This document shows positions 12,201-56,887 of a DNA stretch of 64,000 nucleotides, one piece after another. The stretch spans positions 248,001-312,000 of the forward strand of contig NZ_BDIR01000002.1 of the NCBI RefSeq assembly GCF_001895145.1, written 5' to 3'. Both the position numbers and the translations under genes were made by a program. Source of the stretch: Arcobacter sp. LA11. GTDB lineage: Bacteria; Campylobacterota; Campylobacteria; Campylobacterales; Arcobacteraceae. Position 1 is the first letter of the stretch; each line of letters starts with the position of its first letter. Below the pieces are notes generated by a model that did no database searches, was not told where the DNA came from, and saw nothing but the letters and a program-made list of their open reading frames with translations.

Positions 12201-12960
12201 AGCTATCATAGGAGGACTTATATTAAATGAAATCATAGATAGTGATTTAGATATATATTTAAAAAAATCACTTCTATATAAAACAATAGATTTTTCTATT
12301 TGGAAAAACCTAAGAGGAATAGCCCAAGATAAAAAATATCAAGCTCCATATCTTTTTGAAACTACAAATCAAAAAAAAGAATTAAAAACTATATCAAGTG
12401 ATGGCTTTAATACTCCAAAAAAACTAGTAAACTTTATAGGAGAGAACTACAAAGGAAATGAAAAATACTTTGACACATCTTTAAGAAATGAACTAAGCTT
12501 TTTTAAATCATCTATATTTGGATATAAACTAGAACTACTAGATGAGACAAAAAGAGTAAAAAAATTAAAAAATAAGTATAATGTAGATGTGACTCTTTAT
12601 GAAAAAACTTTTGTTAAGATACCTAAAATAATTGCTGATGATAAAGATTTTAAATTTATATTTGAATCTGATGGTAAATATCAAGTTATCAAAAAAAGTA
12701 GCTTAATACTTGAAAATGATTACAATATTTACGATTTATTTAATCAAAACTTTACAAATTTAGATGAATTAAAAACGATAAATTATAAAGAAGCATCTAT
12801 ACTAGTTATCTCATCACAAGTAGAGTTAAAGTATGATTTTGTTTATAGCTATAAAGATTTAAATTACTTATTTGCTTTAAATTTTGAACAATCAAGTTTT
12901 ACACTACAAGATGTGGAAGAACTAGAAAAATTAATAGAAAAAAAAGAGGACACTAAATAA
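9295..12960 (+). CDS. Putative type VI secretion effector with PAAR-like N terminus and membrane-inserting C terminus
   Basis: This is a 1221-residue protein. Residues 1-95 are Cys- and Gly-rich (CACGGKVSL, GAPVACP, then SNVC) and resemble the PAAR-like/DUF4280 tip domain. The middle is long, Lys-rich and helical. Around residue 305, the ILCIIEDILGEIEDMYVKYYN stretch recalls the region after the N terminus of VasX/BTH_I2691-type effectors. Hydrophobic helices lie at about 910-930, 938-958 and 960-982; the last two form an Ala/Gly/Ile-rich hairpin like a colicin pore former. The stop overlaps the next lipoprotein start. No VgrG, Hcp or sheath gene is in the window. Family assignment is from pattern memory; a pore-forming role is inferred. 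Confidence 0.6.
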   Translation: MGNEYNVIEKAIIKCACGGKVSLTSSAKVERIAGEKPLYLNDIIGAPVACPRSKNKCSVVASISMAGTESNVCSTSEYFLLRTDGFTTDKGRAVILSNPGQGTSKIAKVPSVENLVVQEDEPLEKVVREEKKKEYKRKYALYFLRKSEDVYKPLRPTREFIKADETFLSKDGTLDIKDNIHVHTFAYIYITQENKTIEYKVISKGTLYSEELKEIFFKNTQTNVEYTYIPLEKDTKVDISYSSIKLQDKKDIVKLKRLSIDPKQPDQKDYFYLKDAQGINDNEITKETLETQKKFKQSNDGKQKRLNILCIIEDILGEIEDMYVKYYNNYKLAYAHNHSIIEDIKKNNLYTYTIANMVDYFYVSKDETKTYKDSIQELKIIYNDMISLLLSDTELTNLLTVEKDISKILEKDIEKVAQSYFQQIQFLKKDFFKDRYENKNSVYYSKTNFRTANRYVYLTDSIRKTNRRYVANMSRSGMKPLEFNSTNDDYTQIKNNASHVLAHVLFSLVYSEKFEKELKSTSAYSKLNKLRNNFLIKLRGIAPKPNISDKSIEDMQDVVEKQTIYHDIMVKPQSFRDKFLEEYEDLDYVKSIKSFEQKGDKVSFKSKYIYSQDINYYKNDIEKPMDIMKKIAVKLKDAKLKELLRIYEGIENTDKLNYVVSAMNIIYLLSAPRTYLDQETDINSFFNDELTHIYDFVVDMTKKKIALSDKQKETLRFEYQVSETYSSMQMNLILNDIIFSNSKKKALKFIEKFKVAVETDTKKDINYKYIHDQDQNIKSLQREYYEALKNIEGNTSNIDKILVEFTKDETKRISISQKSATYLSSGLKTYGNIIAIAKVSDYLFFDDSKKNIKTHIGFVNDLTAVTVSLGLLVGKYPRTPMKVLELFLKTNTARGIKLSSKKLLNFIEQKAVAKIAVITIVITTAYDVVTLYKREDYDALVVTTALAGVSLALILTIPATPAIILGAIVAIIGGLILNEIIDSDLDIYLKKSLLYKTIDFSIWKNLRGIAQDKKYQAPYLFETTNQKKELKTISSDGFNTPKKLVNFIGENYKGNEKYFDTSLRNELSFFKSSIFGYKLELLDETKRVKKLKNKYNVDVTLYEKTFVKIPKIIADDKDFKFIFESDGKYQVIKKSSLILENDYNIYDLFNQNFTNLDELKTINYKEASILVISSQVELKYDFVYSYKDLNYLFALNFEQSSFTLQDVEELEKLIEKKEDTK

Positions 12961-13760
12961 TGAAACAAAAACAGATAATTAAAATATTACTAATATTAAC
13001 ATTAACTATATTTTTCACTGCATGTAATGACAATAAAAAAGAAATGGAGCATAAAGCTATTTTATCAATGCCTAATGTGAAAGAAAGTGATATTAATAAA
13101 TATTACAAGTTAAGTACATATTTAAAAGCAAAAAAAGACCCAATATCAGCCACAAAAATAGGATATGCTTATTCAGAAGAATTAAAAGATTATGATAAAG
13201 CAATAGAGTGGTATAAATACTCAAACTCAATGAAACCAATGGGTGAAAACTCAAACTATATGTGCTATGCCTATCAAATGAAAAAAGAGTATGAAGAAGC
13301 TATAAAATGGTGTAAAAATGCTATTGAGCTTGGAAGTGATGAGGCATTACTTCTTTTAGGAAATGCATATACAGAACTAAATGAATATAATGAATCAATA
13401 TTATGGATTAAAAAAGCTTATGAAAAAAACAATCCTGATGCCGCAATTAACTTAGGTTATTCATATTCTAAAATAAATGATTATAAAAATGCAGAAAAAT
13501 GGTATAAAATAGCAGTAAAAAATAATGATTATGAAGCTTATAAAAATTTGTCTACTCTTTATAATGAAAAATTAAATGATAATATAAAAGCAAGTGCTTA
13601 CGCAATAGCAGTTATAGATACAAAATATTCTAAATCTTCTGTTTTAAGAGTTTTAAAAGAAGAAATGAAAATTCCAAATGAAACAATAAAAAAAGGCTAT
13701 GAACTACAACTAAACTCAGATGAATTTCCAATAAAGTATAAAGGTGACTTAGGATTATAA
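12960..13760 (+). CDS. Sel1/TPR-like repeat lipoprotein, candidate immunity protein 1
   Basis: This 266-residue protein has a signal peptide ending in a lipobox (FFTAC, lipidated C22). The rest is short helical repeats in which WYK, Y and A recur about every 36 residues (AIEWYKYSNS, AIKWCKNAIEL, AEKWYKIAVK), like Sel1/TPR units. The start overlaps the stop of the putative effector, so the two are probably translationally coupled. It would sit on the periplasmic face of a membrane, where an immunity protein against a membrane-inserting toxin could act. It is a paralogue of the gene at 13930. The immunity role is inferred from context. Confidence 0.65.
   Translation: MKQKQIIKILLILTLTIFFTACNDNKKEMEHKAILSMPNVKESDINKYYKLSTYLKAKKDPISATKIGYAYSEELKDYDKAIEWYKYSNSMKPMGENSNYMCYAYQMKKEYEEAIKWCKNAIELGSDEALLLLGNAYTELNEYNESILWIKKAYEKNNPDAAINLGYSYSKINDYKNAEKWYKIAVKNNDYEAYKNLSTLYNEKLNDNIKASAYAIAVIDTKYSKSSVLRVLKEEMKIPNETIKKGYELQLNSDEFPIKYKGDLGL
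13572..13760 (+). repeat. 3' repeat unit, copy 1 of 2
   Basis: The last 62 codons and the stop of this lipoprotein gene encode the same residues as 14527-14715 in the downstream paralogue. The nucleotide differences I counted are all synonymous. Confidence 0.9.
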
Positions 13761-13761
13761 A

Positions 13762-13926
13762 ATGAATAAGTCACTAGCGATTATAATAATTCTTATACTT
13801 TTTTTCTCGATAAGATATTTTGTCCAAAAAAATCAAAAACAAGAAGAAATGACTTATCAACAAATACAAATGGATTTGGATAATATAAAAAACTCTTCTA
13901 AATATAGATTAAATAGTGGAAACTAA
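13762..13926 (+). CDS. 54-residue single-span membrane peptide
   Basis: A short frame begins with ATG one base after the stop of the upstream lipoprotein and ends three bases before the next. Residues 5-16 are strongly hydrophobic (LAIIIILILFF). A basic, Gln-rich stretch (VQKNQKQEE) and a short polar tail follow. The spacing on both sides and the clean open frame argue that it is real. I do not recognise it. It could be an accessory or remnant immunity peptide of the cassette. Confidence 0.6.
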   Translation: MNKSLAIIIILILFFSIRYFVQKNQKQEEMTYQQIQMDLDNIKNSSKYRLNSGN

Positions 13927-13929
13927 ATA

Positions 13930-14715
13930 ATGAAATTAATAAAAATATTACTAATATTAACATTAACTATATTTTTCACCGCATGTAATGACAATAAAAA
14001 AGAAATAGGATATGAAGCTACTTTACCTATGCCTAGTACAAAAGGATTATCAAATATGGGATTGATAGGATTAGCCCATGATGGAAAAAAAGACCCAATA
14101 CCAGCAACACAAATAGGATACACCTATTCAGAAGAGTTAAAAGATTATGATAAAGCAATAGAATGGTATAAATACTCAAATTCAATGAAACCAATGGCTG
14201 AAAACTCAAACTATATGTGCTATGCCTATCAAATGAAAAAAGAGTATGAAGAAGCTCTAAAATGGTGTAAAAATGCTATTGAGCTTGGGAGTGATGAGGC
14301 ATTAATTGGATTAGGAAGTGCCTACGATGAAGTTAATGAACATGCAAGAGCAATTGATTATTACAAAAAAGCATATGAAAAAAAACTTCCTGAAGCTTCA
14401 AACAACTTAGGATATTCATATTCAAAAATTAAAGATTATAAAAAGGCAGAAGTTTGGTATAAAAAAGCTATAAAAGAAGGTAATTTAGAATCATATCAAA
14501 ATATAGCAACTTTTTATCATGAAGGGTTAAATGATAATATAAAAGCAAGTGCATACGCAATAGCAGTGATAGATACAAAATACTCTAAATCTTCTGTTTT
14601 AAGAGTTTTAAAAGAAGAAATGAAAATTCCAAATGAAACAATAAAAAAAGGCTATGAATTACAACTAAATTCAGATGAGTTTCCAATAAAATATAAAGGT
14701 GACTTAGGATTATAA
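13930..14715 (+). CDS. Sel1/TPR-like repeat lipoprotein, candidate immunity protein 2
   Basis: This 261-residue paralogue of the gene at 12960 has a nearly identical signal peptide (lipidated C19), repeat core and C-terminal 62 residues. It differs in two blocks: residues ~26-58, just after the lipid anchor, and ~132-199 in the later repeats. This mosaic of conserved and variable blocks fits duplicated immunity genes with different specificities. It is the last gene of the cassette and is followed by a hairpin before the convergent mscS paralogue. Confidence 0.65.
   Translation: MKLIKILLILTLTIFFTACNDNKKEIGYEATLPMPSTKGLSNMGLIGLAHDGKKDPIPATQIGYTYSEELKDYDKAIEWYKYSNSMKPMAENSNYMCYAYQMKKEYEEALKWCKNAIELGSDEALIGLGSAYDEVNEHARAIDYYKKAYEKKLPEASNNLGYSYSKIKDYKKAEVWYKKAIKEGNLESYQNIATFYHEGLNDNIKASAYAIAVIDTKYSKSSVLRVLKEEMKIPNETIKKGYELQLNSDEFPIKYKGDLGL
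14527..14715 (+). repeat. 3' repeat unit, copy 2 of 2
   Basis: This encodes the same 62 C-terminal residues as 13572-13760 and differs only at silent positions. The flanking central blocks of the two genes diverge much more, pointing to gene conversion or strong constraint on the C terminus. Confidence 0.9.
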
Positions 14716-53367: not shown

Positions 53368-53398
53368 TCATACACTAGATACAATTCGATTTATAACA

Positions 53399-53416
53399 AG
53401 AGTAACTCGTTACTCT
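53399..53416 (+). terminator. Small hairpin after the flavoprotein operon
   Basis: AGAGTAAC and GTTACTCT pair around TC, followed by a T-rich stretch (CTTTAGAGTTTT). It lies 32 bases after the small membrane protein gene and before the leader element, so it may end the upstream operon. Confidence 0.45.
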
Positions 53417-53428
53417 CTTTAGAGTTTT

Positions 53429-53516
53429 GCTACTTTTAAGAGGATTTTATATCCTCTGATAAAAAGTAGACATAAAATATATTGGTCCCTTAAAAAATGG
53501 GACATTTTTTAAGGAA
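53429..53516 (+). promoter_or_regulatory. Two-hairpin leader element, copy 1 (before the ymdB-like gene)
   Basis: Hairpin 1 (53430-53469) has outer stem CTACTTTT/AAAAGTAG and inner stem AGAGGAT/ATCCTCT with loop TTTAT. A 15-base AT-rich linker contains CATAAAATAT, a possible -10 box. Hairpin 2 pairs GTCCC (53485-53489) with GGGAC (53499-53503), then A and six T. AAGGA, the ribosome-binding site, is at 53511-53515 and the TTG start at 53522. About 78 of 88 bases match copy 2 at 56082. I do not recognise it as a known riboswitch. Confidence 0.65.
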
Positions 53517-53521
53517 CATAG

Positions 53522-54334
53522 TTGAGAATCGCATTTATTGGAGATATTGTTGGTCGTCCTGGCCGAAAAATCATAAAAGAAAACCTATCTAAAATTAGAG
53601 TAGAATATAACATTGATTTTGTAATTGCAAATGGTGAAAATGCAAGTCATGGTTTTGGACTGACAACAAAAAATTGTGATGAACTTTTAAAAGCAGGAAT
53701 AGATGTAATAACAGGTGGAAATCACTCTTTTGATAAAAAAAGAGAGATGTTTGCACTTTTAGAAACGGAAAATGTATTAAGACCAGATAATTATCCTGCT
53801 GGAATTCCAGGTTCTGGATTAAAAATATTTGAAGTTGGTTCTGAAAAATTAGCTGTAATAAATTTAATGGGACAGTTTGCAATGCCAACAGTTGAAAACC
53901 CTTTTAACTGGGCTAGAAAACTTGTAGATGAATTAAAAGAACAAGATATTAAAAATATATTTATTGATTTTCATGCAGAAGCAACAAGTGAAAAAAGAGT
54001 TATTTTTATGATGTTAAAAGGTGAAGTAAGTTCTATTTGTGGTACTCATACCCATGTTGGAACAGATGATTTACAAATTATGGATGGAACTTCATATTTA
54101 ACTGATATTGGACTTACTGGTTGTAGAGATAATGTAATTGGAATGGATAAAAAAGTTCCAATTGCTAAAGCTACTACTGGATTAGGTGGACATTTTGAAG
54201 TTCCAAATGCATGTAAATCTATTCTTCAAATAATGGTTACAGATATTGAAGAAGGTCGAGCAGTAAATAGTTTTAAATTAAAAAAACTTTGTAATAAACA
54301 AGAACTTATAAAAACAGATGCAATTGCCGACTAA
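53522..54334 (+). CDS. YmdB-like metallophosphoesterase (TIGR00282 family)
   Basis: The 270-residue protein has all binuclear metal motifs: FIGDIVGRPG, NGENASHGFG, GGNHSFD, DFHAEATSEK and GTHTHVGTDD. YmdB of Bacillus is a cyclic-nucleotide phosphodiesterase affecting biofilm and RNA turnover. Members in Campylobacterota are uncharacterised as far as I know. The start is TTG with AAGGA 6 bases before it, downstream of the two-hairpin leader. Its 3' end overlaps the glycosylase gene by 17 bases. Confidence 0.9.
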   Translation: MRIAFIGDIVGRPGRKIIKENLSKIRVEYNIDFVIANGENASHGFGLTTKNCDELLKAGIDVITGGNHSFDKKREMFALLETENVLRPDNYPAGIPGSGLKIFEVGSEKLAVINLMGQFAMPTVENPFNWARKLVDELKEQDIKNIFIDFHAEATSEKRVIFMMLKGEVSSICGTHTHVGTDDLQIMDGTSYLTDIGLTGCRDNVIGMDKKVPIAKATTGLGGHFEVPNACKSILQIMVTDIEEGRAVNSFKLKKLCNKQELIKTDAIAD

Positions 54335-54965
54335 TATTTCTAATAGCTATGAGCTTTTAGAATTTTTAAAAAATCAAAATCTACTTGAAGGTCATCCTGA
54401 GTTTTGGTGGTCAAGTGCAAGTGATTTTGAAATTTTAATTGGTGCAATATTAACTCAAAATACAAAATGGACAAATGTTGAAAAATCTTTAGAAAACTTA
54501 CGAAAACTTGATTTATTATCTTTTCAAAAATTAATAGATATTGACTTAGAAGTTTTGATTTTAGCAATTACTCCTAGTGGGTTTAAAAATCAAAAAGCAG
54601 TAAGATTAAAACAGTTAGCAAAAAATATAATTGATGAATTTATAACTTTTGAAAACTTTTGTGAAAATGTATCAAAAGAGTGGTTGTTAGAACAAAAAGG
54701 TATTGGACTTGAAACTGCTGATGCAATTTTGTGTTATGCTTGCCATCAAGAGTTTATGGTAGTTGATAAATATACACAAAGGTTAGTAAAACACTTTGGA
54801 TTTGAGTTTGAGAACTATGAAGATTTACAAGCTTGGTGTGAATATGGAATTAATGAAAACTTCGATAAAATATCTAAACTTTATGGGTTTGAAATATCTT
54901 TAAACAAACTTTATTGTAGATTCCACGGTAAGATTATCGAATTTATGAAGAGTAATAAACTATGA
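54318..54965 (+). CDS. MagIII-like 3-methyladenine DNA glycosylase (HhH-GPD)
   Basis: The 215-residue protein has an endonuclease III fold: FEILIGAILTQNTKW, hairpin-helix-hairpin GIGLETADAIL and catalytic Asp in VVDKYTQRL. The Lys that gives EndoIII its lyase activity is Glu here (GLETAD). The C-terminal four-Cys iron-sulfur site is missing. Both features fit H. pylori MagIII, a monofunctional glycosylase for alkylated bases. It overlaps the phosphodiesterase gene and is 19 bases before the ParA-like gene. Confidence 0.82.
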   Translation: MQLPTNISNSYELLEFLKNQNLLEGHPEFWWSSASDFEILIGAILTQNTKWTNVEKSLENLRKLDLLSFQKLIDIDLEVLILAITPSGFKNQKAVRLKQLAKNIIDEFITFENFCENVSKEWLLEQKGIGLETADAILCYACHQEFMVVDKYTQRLVKHFGFEFENYEDLQAWCEYGINENFDKISKLYGFEISLNKLYCRFHGKIIEFMKSNKL

Positions 54966-54984
54966 GTATCATGAGGGTTAAGAA

Positions 54985-55776
54985 ATGATAATTATTCCAC
55001 AAACAAAAGGTGGTGTTGGTAAATCAACTGTTGCAATGCAAGTAATTGCTCCATACCTATTTAAAAAACATGGTAAAAAAGTAACTTACATTGAAATTGA
55101 TGATGAAAACAATGATAGTCAATCTTTTACAAGAACTGAAATTTGTGATAAGAGAATGCTAGGAACTAATAGACTTACGGAACTTGATGAACTTATTTTA
55201 ATGGATGATAACCATGAAATAATTGTTGATGTTGGTGGAAATAAAACTTCATCTTTAGTTCTTGAAGAGATAAAAAAAGTTGGTTCATTTGGAAATGTTA
55301 AGTGGATTATCCCTTTAGGTGATGGTGAACTTGATGGAAAAAATGCAATAGCAACTATGAAAAAAATCAAAAAAATAGAACAAAATCCAGAAGAAAACAT
55401 TTTATTTGCTCTAAATCGTGCTATTTCTATGGAACCAGAATATATAGAAGAACAATTTATTAACTTTTTTGGACATAAATATTTAGATAGTAATTCTGTA
55501 CTTTGTGATTTTGTAAAAGACCCAAAATATTTTGCCGTGAAAAATGATAAAGTTATCACAATGAGTAGATATCTTGGAAGTACTGTTTGGGAAATGGCAT
55601 ATAACAACACTGATTTTGCTAAAAAAGCTATGAAAGCAAAAGAACTTGGTGATTTAGAAAGTGCTAGGAAGTTTCTGTTTTTTAGAAGAATTCAAACAGA
55701 AGCAAAAGATTATGTTTTAGGTACTTTAAATAAAATATTTTATGACTTAGACCAATGGCTAGATATTAAAAAATGA
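54985..55776 (+). CDS. ParA/MinD-like P-loop ATPase
   Basis: The 263-residue protein begins with a deviant Walker A (KGGVGKST at 8-15), followed by YIEIDDEN and EIIVDVGGNKTSS, as in ParA/Soj relatives. The C-terminal ~80 residues are unlike chromosomal ParA. No ParB gene is next to it; the next gene overlaps by 4 bases and encodes a small coiled-coil membrane protein. The pair may position something at the membrane. It could derive from a plasmid partition ATPase. I do not recognise the subfamily. Confidence 0.75.
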   Translation: MIIIPQTKGGVGKSTVAMQVIAPYLFKKHGKKVTYIEIDDENNDSQSFTRTEICDKRMLGTNRLTELDELILMDDNHEIIVDVGGNKTSSLVLEEIKKVGSFGNVKWIIPLGDGELDGKNAIATMKKIKKIEQNPEENILFALNRAISMEPEYIEEQFINFFGHKYLDSNSVLCDFVKDPKYFAVKNDKVITMSRYLGSTVWEMAYNNTDFAKKAMKAKELGDLESARKFLFFRRIQTEAKDYVLGTLNKIFYDLDQWLDIKK

Positions 55777-56021
55777 GTGATATGACTTTTAAAGAAGCAA
55801 AAGATATTGTAGAAAGACTTGAACTAGCTGACCTTAGTTTACGTAATTCGTTTGATAATATTGATTATGCAAGAAGAAATTTAGATGATTCACTAATAGA
55901 ACAAAAAAAAGTATTAAAACAATTACCCGAAAAAGAGAGCAAAATAAAATATTTATATTTAATAATCATGTTAAATATAGGTTTTATTGGTGGTCTTTTT
56001 GTTGGTAAGTATTTATTATAA
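55773..56021 (+). CDS. Small tail-anchored coiled-coil protein
   Basis: The 82-residue protein has an N-terminal helical, charged coiled-coil region (residues ~5-55). A single C-terminal membrane helix (YLYLIIMLNIGFIGGLFVGKYLL) includes a Gly-rich face. It overlaps the ParA-like gene by 4 bases (ATGA), so translation is coupled. It may be the membrane or adaptor partner of that ATPase. Unrecognised family. Confidence 0.7.
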   Translation: MSDMTFKEAKDIVERLELADLSLRNSFDNIDYARRNLDDSLIEQKKVLKQLPEKESKIKYLYLIIMLNIGFIGGLFVGKYLL

Positions 56022-56081
56022 AAAGAAAAAGCTTTATTCTTAAAGCACTTTAGGATTTTCTCAAAGAGAGTTTAAGAACAG

Positions 56082-56168
56082 GCTACTTTTAAGTGGATTT
56101 TATATCCGCAGTTAAAAAGTAGATATAAAATATAAGGTCCTTTCAAGAATGGGACATTTTTTAAGGAA
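56082..56168 (+). promoter_or_regulatory. Two-hairpin leader element, copy 2 (before ubiE)
   Basis: Hairpin 1 (56083-56122) keeps the outer stem CTACTTTT/AAAAGTAG. The inner stem is GTGGAT/ATCCGC: relative to copy 1, an A-T pair has become T-G, so pairing is kept. The linker has TATAAAATATA, a possible -10 box. Hairpin 2 pairs GTCCT (56137-56141) with GGGAC (56151-56155), including one G-T wobble, then A and six T. AAGGA at 56163-56167 serves the ATG at 56177. Confidence 0.65.
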
Positions 56169-56176
56169 GAGAATAT

Positions 56177-56887
56177 ATGGGTAAACAAGAAAAAATTGTA
56201 TCAATGTTCAATGATATTGCAGGAACTTATGATATAGCAAATAGAGTTCTTAGTATGGGAATTGATAAATCTTGGAGAAATAAAGCTTGTAATTTAGCAT
56301 ACAACTTTTATGGTAAAAATGAATTAGATAGAATTGTTGATGTTGCTTGTGGAACAGGTGATATGATTGAATTCTGGCAAAAAATTGCTACATCAAATGG
56401 TATTAATTTAAAAAATGTCATTGGAGTAGATCCAAGTGTTGGTATGATGGATGTTGCAAAAAAGAAGCTACCTGATGTAGAATTTGTAGAAGCAGGTGCA
56501 GCACAAATGCCGCTTGACAATGATAGTGCAGATATCATCTCTATTTCATATGGAATTAGAAATGTAGTACAAAGACAAGAAGCTTTTGATGAATTTGCAA
56601 GAGTACTTAAAAAAGATGGTTTAGTTGTAATTTCAGAGTTTACAAAAAATGAAAAAACTAATCCTTTAGATCATGTAACTGATTTTTATATGAATAAAGT
56701 ATTACCAACTTTAGGTGGATTAATTTCAAAAAATAAAGAAGCATACACTTATTTACCAAATTCAATTGATGAATTTTTAACTACTGATAATCTTTGTAAA
56801 GAGTTAAGACAAGCAGGTCTTGAGCCAATTCATACACAAGCTTTTTCAATGAAAATATCTACTTTAATCATAGCTAGAAAAGTTTAA
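56177..56887 (+). CDS. ubiE: Demethylmenaquinone / ubiquinone methyltransferase UbiE
   Basis: UbiE C-methylates demethylmenaquinone, the last step of menaquinone synthesis. The 236-residue protein has MFNDIAGTYDIANRVLSMGID at the start, DVACGTGDM as SAM motif I, and YGIRNVVQRQEAFDEFARVL with the classic GIRN. In this phylum the quinone is menaquinone or methyl-menaquinone. It follows copy 2 of the two-hairpin leader and is 25 bases from xseA. Confidence 0.96.
   Translation: MGKQEKIVSMFNDIAGTYDIANRVLSMGIDKSWRNKACNLAYNFYGKNELDRIVDVACGTGDMIEFWQKIATSNGINLKNVIGVDPSVGMMDVAKKKLPDVEFVEAGAAQMPLDNDSADIISISYGIRNVVQRQEAFDEFARVLKKDGLVVISEFTKNEKTNPLDHVTDFYMNKVLPTLGGLISKNKEAYTYLPNSIDEFLTTDNLCKELRQAGLEPIHTQAFSMKISTLIIARKV

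Follow-up and report, generated by a model that had tools for sequence, protein, structure and literature searches.

Why should two unrelated genes of Arcobacter sp. LA11, a ymdB-like gene and ubiE, open with nearly the same leader? An earlier note on this DNA had pointed to look-alike leaders with a common plan at 53429-53516 and 56082-56168 of the window (the whole stretch analysed, 64,000 nucleotides), and the places are correct: blastn and alignment give 89% identity across 88 bases, and a pattern for the core of hairpin P1 has two matches in the 64 kb (expected 0), both of them the window copies. Both leaders belong to a larger family of structured repeats, and on balance we believe that this 5'-leader element is dispersed, probably mobile, and works as a switch of translation.

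Parts of the element and their pairing

The full element is about 115 bases long and consists of a hairpin P0, an invariant CTTTAGnnTTTG joint, a hairpin P1, an A-rich linker, and a hairpin P2 that ends in the Shine-Dalgarno sequence (SD) AAGGA. Its parts in the window are given below; R1 denotes a covariance model from ten copies, with genome counts taken at E<0.01, and R2 a covariance model of P2 alone.

53378-53385, + strand: -10-like GATACAAT 5' of copy 1 (sequence; the same motif precedes ymdB with and without the element)
53398-53516, + strand: copy 1, full length, before the ymdB-like gene (R1 match, 118 bits, C2:301398-301516)
53399-53416, + strand: copy 1 P0 hairpin, AGAGTAA - CTCG - TTACTCT (pairing kept within copies)
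53417-53429, + strand: copy 1 joint CTTTAGAGTTTTG, the best-conserved unpaired stretch (CTTTAG in nearly all copies)
53430-53469, + strand: copy 1 P1, outer CTACTTTT/AAAAGTAG, inner AGAGGAT/ATCCTCT, loop TTTAT
53485-53515, + strand: copy 1 P2 (R2 match, 52.6 bits; covariation tests)
53485-53489 with 53499-53503, + strand: copy 1 P2 stem A
53488-53498 with 53504-53514, + strand: copy 1 P2 stem B, exclusive with stem A, takes in the SD
53511-53515, + strand: SD AAGGA of the ymdB-like gene (sequence)
53522-54334, + strand: YmdB-like metallophosphoesterase gene, 3' of copy 1 (PF13277, E=2e-89; TTG start at 53522, from sequence)
56030-56168, + strand: copy 2, before ubiE (blastn, R1; P0 end placed by hand)
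56031-56046, + strand: copy 2 P0, GCTTTA - TTCT - TAAAGC (near-identical to P0 of the cysK copy)
56048-56059, + strand: copy 2 joint CTTTAGGATTTT (sequence)
56060-56081, + strand: copy 2 22-nt insertion separating joint from P1
56083-56122, + strand: copy 2 P1 hairpin (alignment, folding)
56137-56167, + strand: copy 2 P2, stem A GTCCT:GGGAC and an exclusive stem B onto the SD (R2 match, 43.2 bits)
56163-56167, + strand: copy 2 SD AAGGA (sequence)
56177-56887, + strand: ubiE, 3' of copy 2 (PF01209, E=5e-44)

P0 is a third hairpin, absent from the plan in the earlier note, and with the CTTTAG joint it opens both copies. The note rightly observed that the sequences upstream of its left edge do not align, and wrongly took that edge for the limit of the element; the true starts are 53398 and about 56030, and the upstream parts do not align because P0 changes in sequence with its pairing kept and because copy 2 carries the 22-nt insertion. 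A copy before rubredoxin (L053) has an insertion similar to that one. Pairing is preserved at the stem differences between the two copies, as the note described: the inner stem goes from A-T to T-G, and hairpin 2 from C-G to T-G. Judged from sequence, the -10-like GATACAAT at 53378-53385 would put the whole of P0-P2 of copy 1 in the 5' UTR. Elsewhere in the window, at 12934-14664, lies a tandem gene pair, about 955 bases apart and 86-90% alike.

Selection for a folded structure, which the note had proposed from two copies, is strongly confirmed by the covariation of P0, P1, and P2. Over the whole element there are 635 double-change cells against 170 in the shuffled control (0/500; 104 copies), counts that are not phylogenetically independent and that come from an alignment fitted to the covariance model, which leans towards structure. 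Standard pairs make up 96.6% of pair cells in the 104 copies, and the pairing is lost when slid. P0, whose 5' arm takes 37 different forms in 96 copies, shows 97% pairing within a copy and 69% between copies in a plain-sequence test that is independent of the model alignment. All of the inner-stem pairs of P1 covary (7/7), the outer UUU:AAA being invariant, and mismatches in this hairpin are overwhelmingly G-U (57, vs 2 A-C), indicating that the mRNA-sense strand is what folds. A-C mismatches are about as frequent as G-U in P0 and P2, so DNA-level selection may act on these two hairpins. The CTTTAG joint is retained in nearly all copies, also in other families and in prophages. Pairing of this joint, or of the 5' arm of P1, with the SD strand is energetically possible and comes without clear covariation (for the joint, -5.25 kcal/mol within vs -5.23 kcal/mol between copies).

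Copies, start sites, and turnover

Blastn of the LA11 genome returns a dozen or so further copies, full or partial. A covariance-model search, which the earlier note had put forward as a check, finds 22 copies here by R1, about 25 counting those with P2 only, and more in relatives, with massive covariation; with R2, P2 copies in front of obgE and nifT come to light as well, and the one before fmt is confirmed. Each congener has copies matching R1 (5-26), as do many Arcobacteraceae genera, and P2 (R2) is present in 72/104 Arcobacteraceae genomes, 15/20 genera. Rfam 15 gave 0 hits in the window at the gathering threshold, the matches in a permissive Rfam scan of 14 copy-bearing loci were all far below threshold, BLAST against plasmid and phage sequences found no match to the element, and searches of the literature on Arcobacter or Campylobacter yielded no described element of this kind. 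Gene conversion among copies of the same genome leaves no overall sign, identity being 0.713 within and 0.719 between genomes.

The position of the copies is strikingly uniform. Ninety-five of 104 stand directly before the start of an ORF of at least 60 aa, 94 of these 4-9 nt away, and with ORFs of at least 35 aa included (e.g., rubredoxin), 100/104 directly precede a start codon on the same strand; the remaining copies include one internal tandem copy and degenerate ones. The genes that follow the 104 copies fall into about 72 unrelated clusters with no common pathway. The genes downstream in this genome, where most copies come straight after the stop of a co-directional gene, are ymdB-like, ubiE, guaA, cysK, thrC, mnmA, trpS, ispH, urtE, fmt, obgE, nifT, and genes for ferredoxin, an acrylyl-CoA reductase-like protein, transaldolase, acetaldehyde dehydrogenase, rubredoxin, a branched-chain amino acid binding protein, an RND permease, a HIT protein, a ferredoxin-nitrite/sulfite reductase-like protein, a nif-cluster protein, a small cytochrome, and a DEAD-box helicase; names of genes with no family hit were assigned from sequence. 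Many of these are Fe-S, redox, or nitrogen-fixation genes. By raw count, such genes, along with those for hydrogenase, seem overrepresented downstream of the 104 copies, and some genes recur there, rubredoxin in 5 genomes and ferredoxin in 4.

Comparison of orthologous sites reveals insertion polymorphism. At guaA the element is present in 1/16 congeners (LA11 only), the other 15 having clean empty sites that consist of a short leader with the same TATAAT-like type of -10, an AAGGA-type SD, and ATG; the LA11 leader has about 115 nt more between -10 and SD. The ubiE site is empty in the nearest relative (95% aa identity); one relative has P2 only, one has P0 and P1 only, and the other 28 have nothing; the ymdB site is likewise empty or partial in relatives. 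Both ends of the element border AAG/AAAG, tandem copies join at AAG, and the empty guaA sites have a single AAAGG or AAGG; the ends, AAG...TTTTT, show no inverted match when filled copies and tandems are inspected by eye. Orthologous copies range in identity from 0.57 to 0.99 against a background of about 0.72. Those before the RND permease gene include an in-place change in P0, T-A to C-G with pairing kept, and at cysK the entire element differs between congeners within near-identical flanks, a difference that may, from the sequences, be a replacement and not substitution. Some genes carry the element in several genera.

P0, joint, and P1 also occur without P2, in other families of the Campylobacterales. 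Of 74 pattern matches in viral contigs, about 30 are this core, the rest being in unrelated, apparently coding sequence, and in some prophage copies (L289, L298) the SD lies within the 3' arm of P1. Some prophage contigs (L249-L318) hold several core copies before phage genes. In two genomes of another Campylobacterales family, f10 (G079 and G093), the core forms part of mosaics of larger repeats, often in places that do not precede a gene; with the f10 core away from start codons, the leader role is not universal. The core is more widespread than the version with P2 and behaves as a dispersed repeat. The f10 mosaics (L236-L248) contain GGGGTACCCC and inverted P0-CTTTAG units and look recently amplified.

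A hairpin with two computed folds and what it may do

Hairpin 2 of copy 1 has a second, longer fold, CCTTAAAAAATG:CATTTTTTAAGG, which takes in the SD and is the minimum-free-energy fold. In the computed folds stem A leaves the SD free and stem B pairs it; the two stems cannot coexist in full because they have two C's in common and no loops lie between the arms. Their median computed energies at 25 C, -10.5 kcal/mol for stem A and -7.9 kcal/mol for stem B, are similar. P2 as a whole has 61 double-change cells against 22 shuffled (0/500; 41 distinct 31-mers), and pairing in stem B is 0.863 within copies vs 0.645 between (0/5000 permutations). The corresponding values for stem A are 0.945 and 0.915 (8/5000 permutations), its covariation coming from few changes since this stem varies little. 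Stems A and B are both intact in the several copies where another hairpin nests between their arms. One such nested hairpin, GGTNCCCTAAAAAAAT..ATTTTTTTAGGCACC-like, lies between the P2 arms in L055, L132, L163, and L205; a different small repeat, approximately TCTTCATAGCGTAGTCTTGTGACGAACGAAGTGAAGAC, is nested in P1 or P2 (L051, L144, L153, L340), the pairing of the host hairpin being kept.

We suggest that the element inserts, or only survives, directly 5' of an SD, in the interval between the start of transcription (or the preceding gene's stop codon) and the SD. The conserved fold in the mRNA would consist of P0, the CUUUAG joint, and P1. Stem A (GUCCC:GGGAC) could form first during RNA synthesis, with the SD free; stem B (CCUUnnnn..:..nnnnAAGG) would then arise by strand exchange and hide the SD, and the balance between A and B should set the translation of the next gene. 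Control might take the form of a timer that confines translation to the mRNA's early life, or the A/B state might be set by something that binds P0-P1. A bolder version of this proposal, in which a mobile element targets ribosome-binding sites, perhaps through pairing of its CCTT arm with an AAGG target, and by insertion gives any gene a two-state SD hairpin, strikes us as a real possibility, though less likely than not. The analysis identified no enzyme responsible for moving the element.

The main rival is a purely selfish repeat of the REP or MITE type, whose hairpins would aid mobility as folded single-stranded DNA and for which the SD would be a mere target; any effect on translation would be incidental, or buffered by a stem A that keeps the SD usable. 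The range of copy number from none to 26, the tandems joined at AAG, the insertion unique to LA11 at guaA, the f10 mosaic repeats, and the parity of A-C and G-U mismatches in P0 and P2 all speak for such a repeat. Against it, this genome with its 22 copies encodes no REP-type (Y1) transposase, inspection by eye finds neither a terminal inverted repeat nor a clear target duplication, orthologous copies mutate in place and keep their pairing, some genes carry the element across genera, and essentially none of the 104 family copies lies off a start site. We regard a selfish origin of this kind as a serious possibility, short of being probable. A link to REP transposases was also considered and set aside, since Y1 transposase is missing here and its presence elsewhere does not track copy number.

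Other readings fare less well. An operator in DNA with no role in the leader, which the earlier note had allowed for, is unlikely, given a promoter-like -10 upstream of P0 at ymdB and guaA that is common to empty sites, and many copies that stand within operons directly past a stop codon. A translation enhancer or operon insulator, with P0-P1 recruiting or spacing ribosomes and uncoupling the downstream gene from the preceding one, would fit the many copies here that directly follow a co-directional gene; it leaves the conservation of the SD-hiding stem unexplained, and we consider it improbable. The structured, conserved leader, and in copy 1 a stem with a T run immediately ahead of the SD, had suggested a ligand-binding riboswitch or attenuator controlling ymdB and ubiE. 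The gene list largely refutes this, with about 25 copies here before unrelated genes and both sites empty or partial in near relatives, most of which lack the element there; nor is there an Rfam match. The terminator-like end that was to effect attenuation is not general: the T run between GGGAC and SD is four or fewer in 63/93 copies, and in many copies A's replace its T's, with matching changes in the other arm of stem B. With the T run not conserved the element is not a terminator, and a riboswitch or attenuator dedicated to these two genes has very little chance of being correct. Finally, a GGA in the middle of P2 in 89/93 copies, together with the GGA of the SD, would suit a leader controlled by CsrA. 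CsrA (PF02599) is found in 0/25 Arcobacteraceae genomes, LA11 included, and in 12/16 genomes from other families of the order; its absence refutes this reading unless a much diverged CsrA exists, and we give the idea almost no credence.

Comparison with known systems

REP/REPIN elements, with their RAYT (Y1) transposase, are dispersed hairpins between genes and, to our knowledge, are not tied to SD sequences; the element described here resembles them in its dispersed intergenic hairpins and differs in that the Y1 enzyme is missing from the LA11 genome. The start-associated sequences of cluster K mycobacteriophages (SAS/ESAS), whose function is unknown, are also repeats directly before the starts of unrelated genes, and in about half the cases an inverted repeat lies upstream (PMC3203893). 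SAS is a fixed 13-bp sequence, to which ESAS adds one 17-bp inverted repeat, and both belong to phage genomes (PMC3203893), whereas the present element has about 115 bp, three covarying hairpins, and a two-state SD hairpin, and resides in bacterial chromosomes. The SAS consensus GGGATAGGAGCCC was not seen in any element copy read.

BOX and RUP of Streptococcus pneumoniae are likewise dispersed structured repeats that can be transcribed in leaders, and they turn over slowly; BOX is modular and RUP is about 107 bp long (PMC3049150). They are not tied to the SD, are described as parasitic, and, according to one proposal, are mobilised by IS elements whose ends resemble theirs (PMC3049150); no IS link of this type was found for our element. 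The TAACTGA repeats of Beggiatoaceae lie a few nucleotides before the starts of unrelated genes, and a translational role has been suggested for them, although they are short direct repeats lacking the three-hairpin structure (PMC4679880). An intergenic RNA screen that covered Arcobacter sp. L, of the same family as LA11, left many motifs unnamed and called one HRC-4 (Stav et al. 2019; PMC6429828); no description in its main text fits the element, and the screen may have touched related repeats. Compared by description, a covarying two-state SD hairpin is in none of the accounts of SAS/ESAS, BOX/RUP, or TAACTGA repeats.

It is known that mobile repeats insert in intergenic positions and disturb expression. 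Here a structured repeat sits almost only at ribosome-binding sites, with a covarying hairpin able to hide or free the SD, and it turns over between species before core genes such as guaA, ispH, trpS, and thrC. Should the transposable switch prove real, this family of bacteria would acquire and lose translational control gene by gene, and new translational control would have a way to spread by means of the element instead of evolving separately for each gene.
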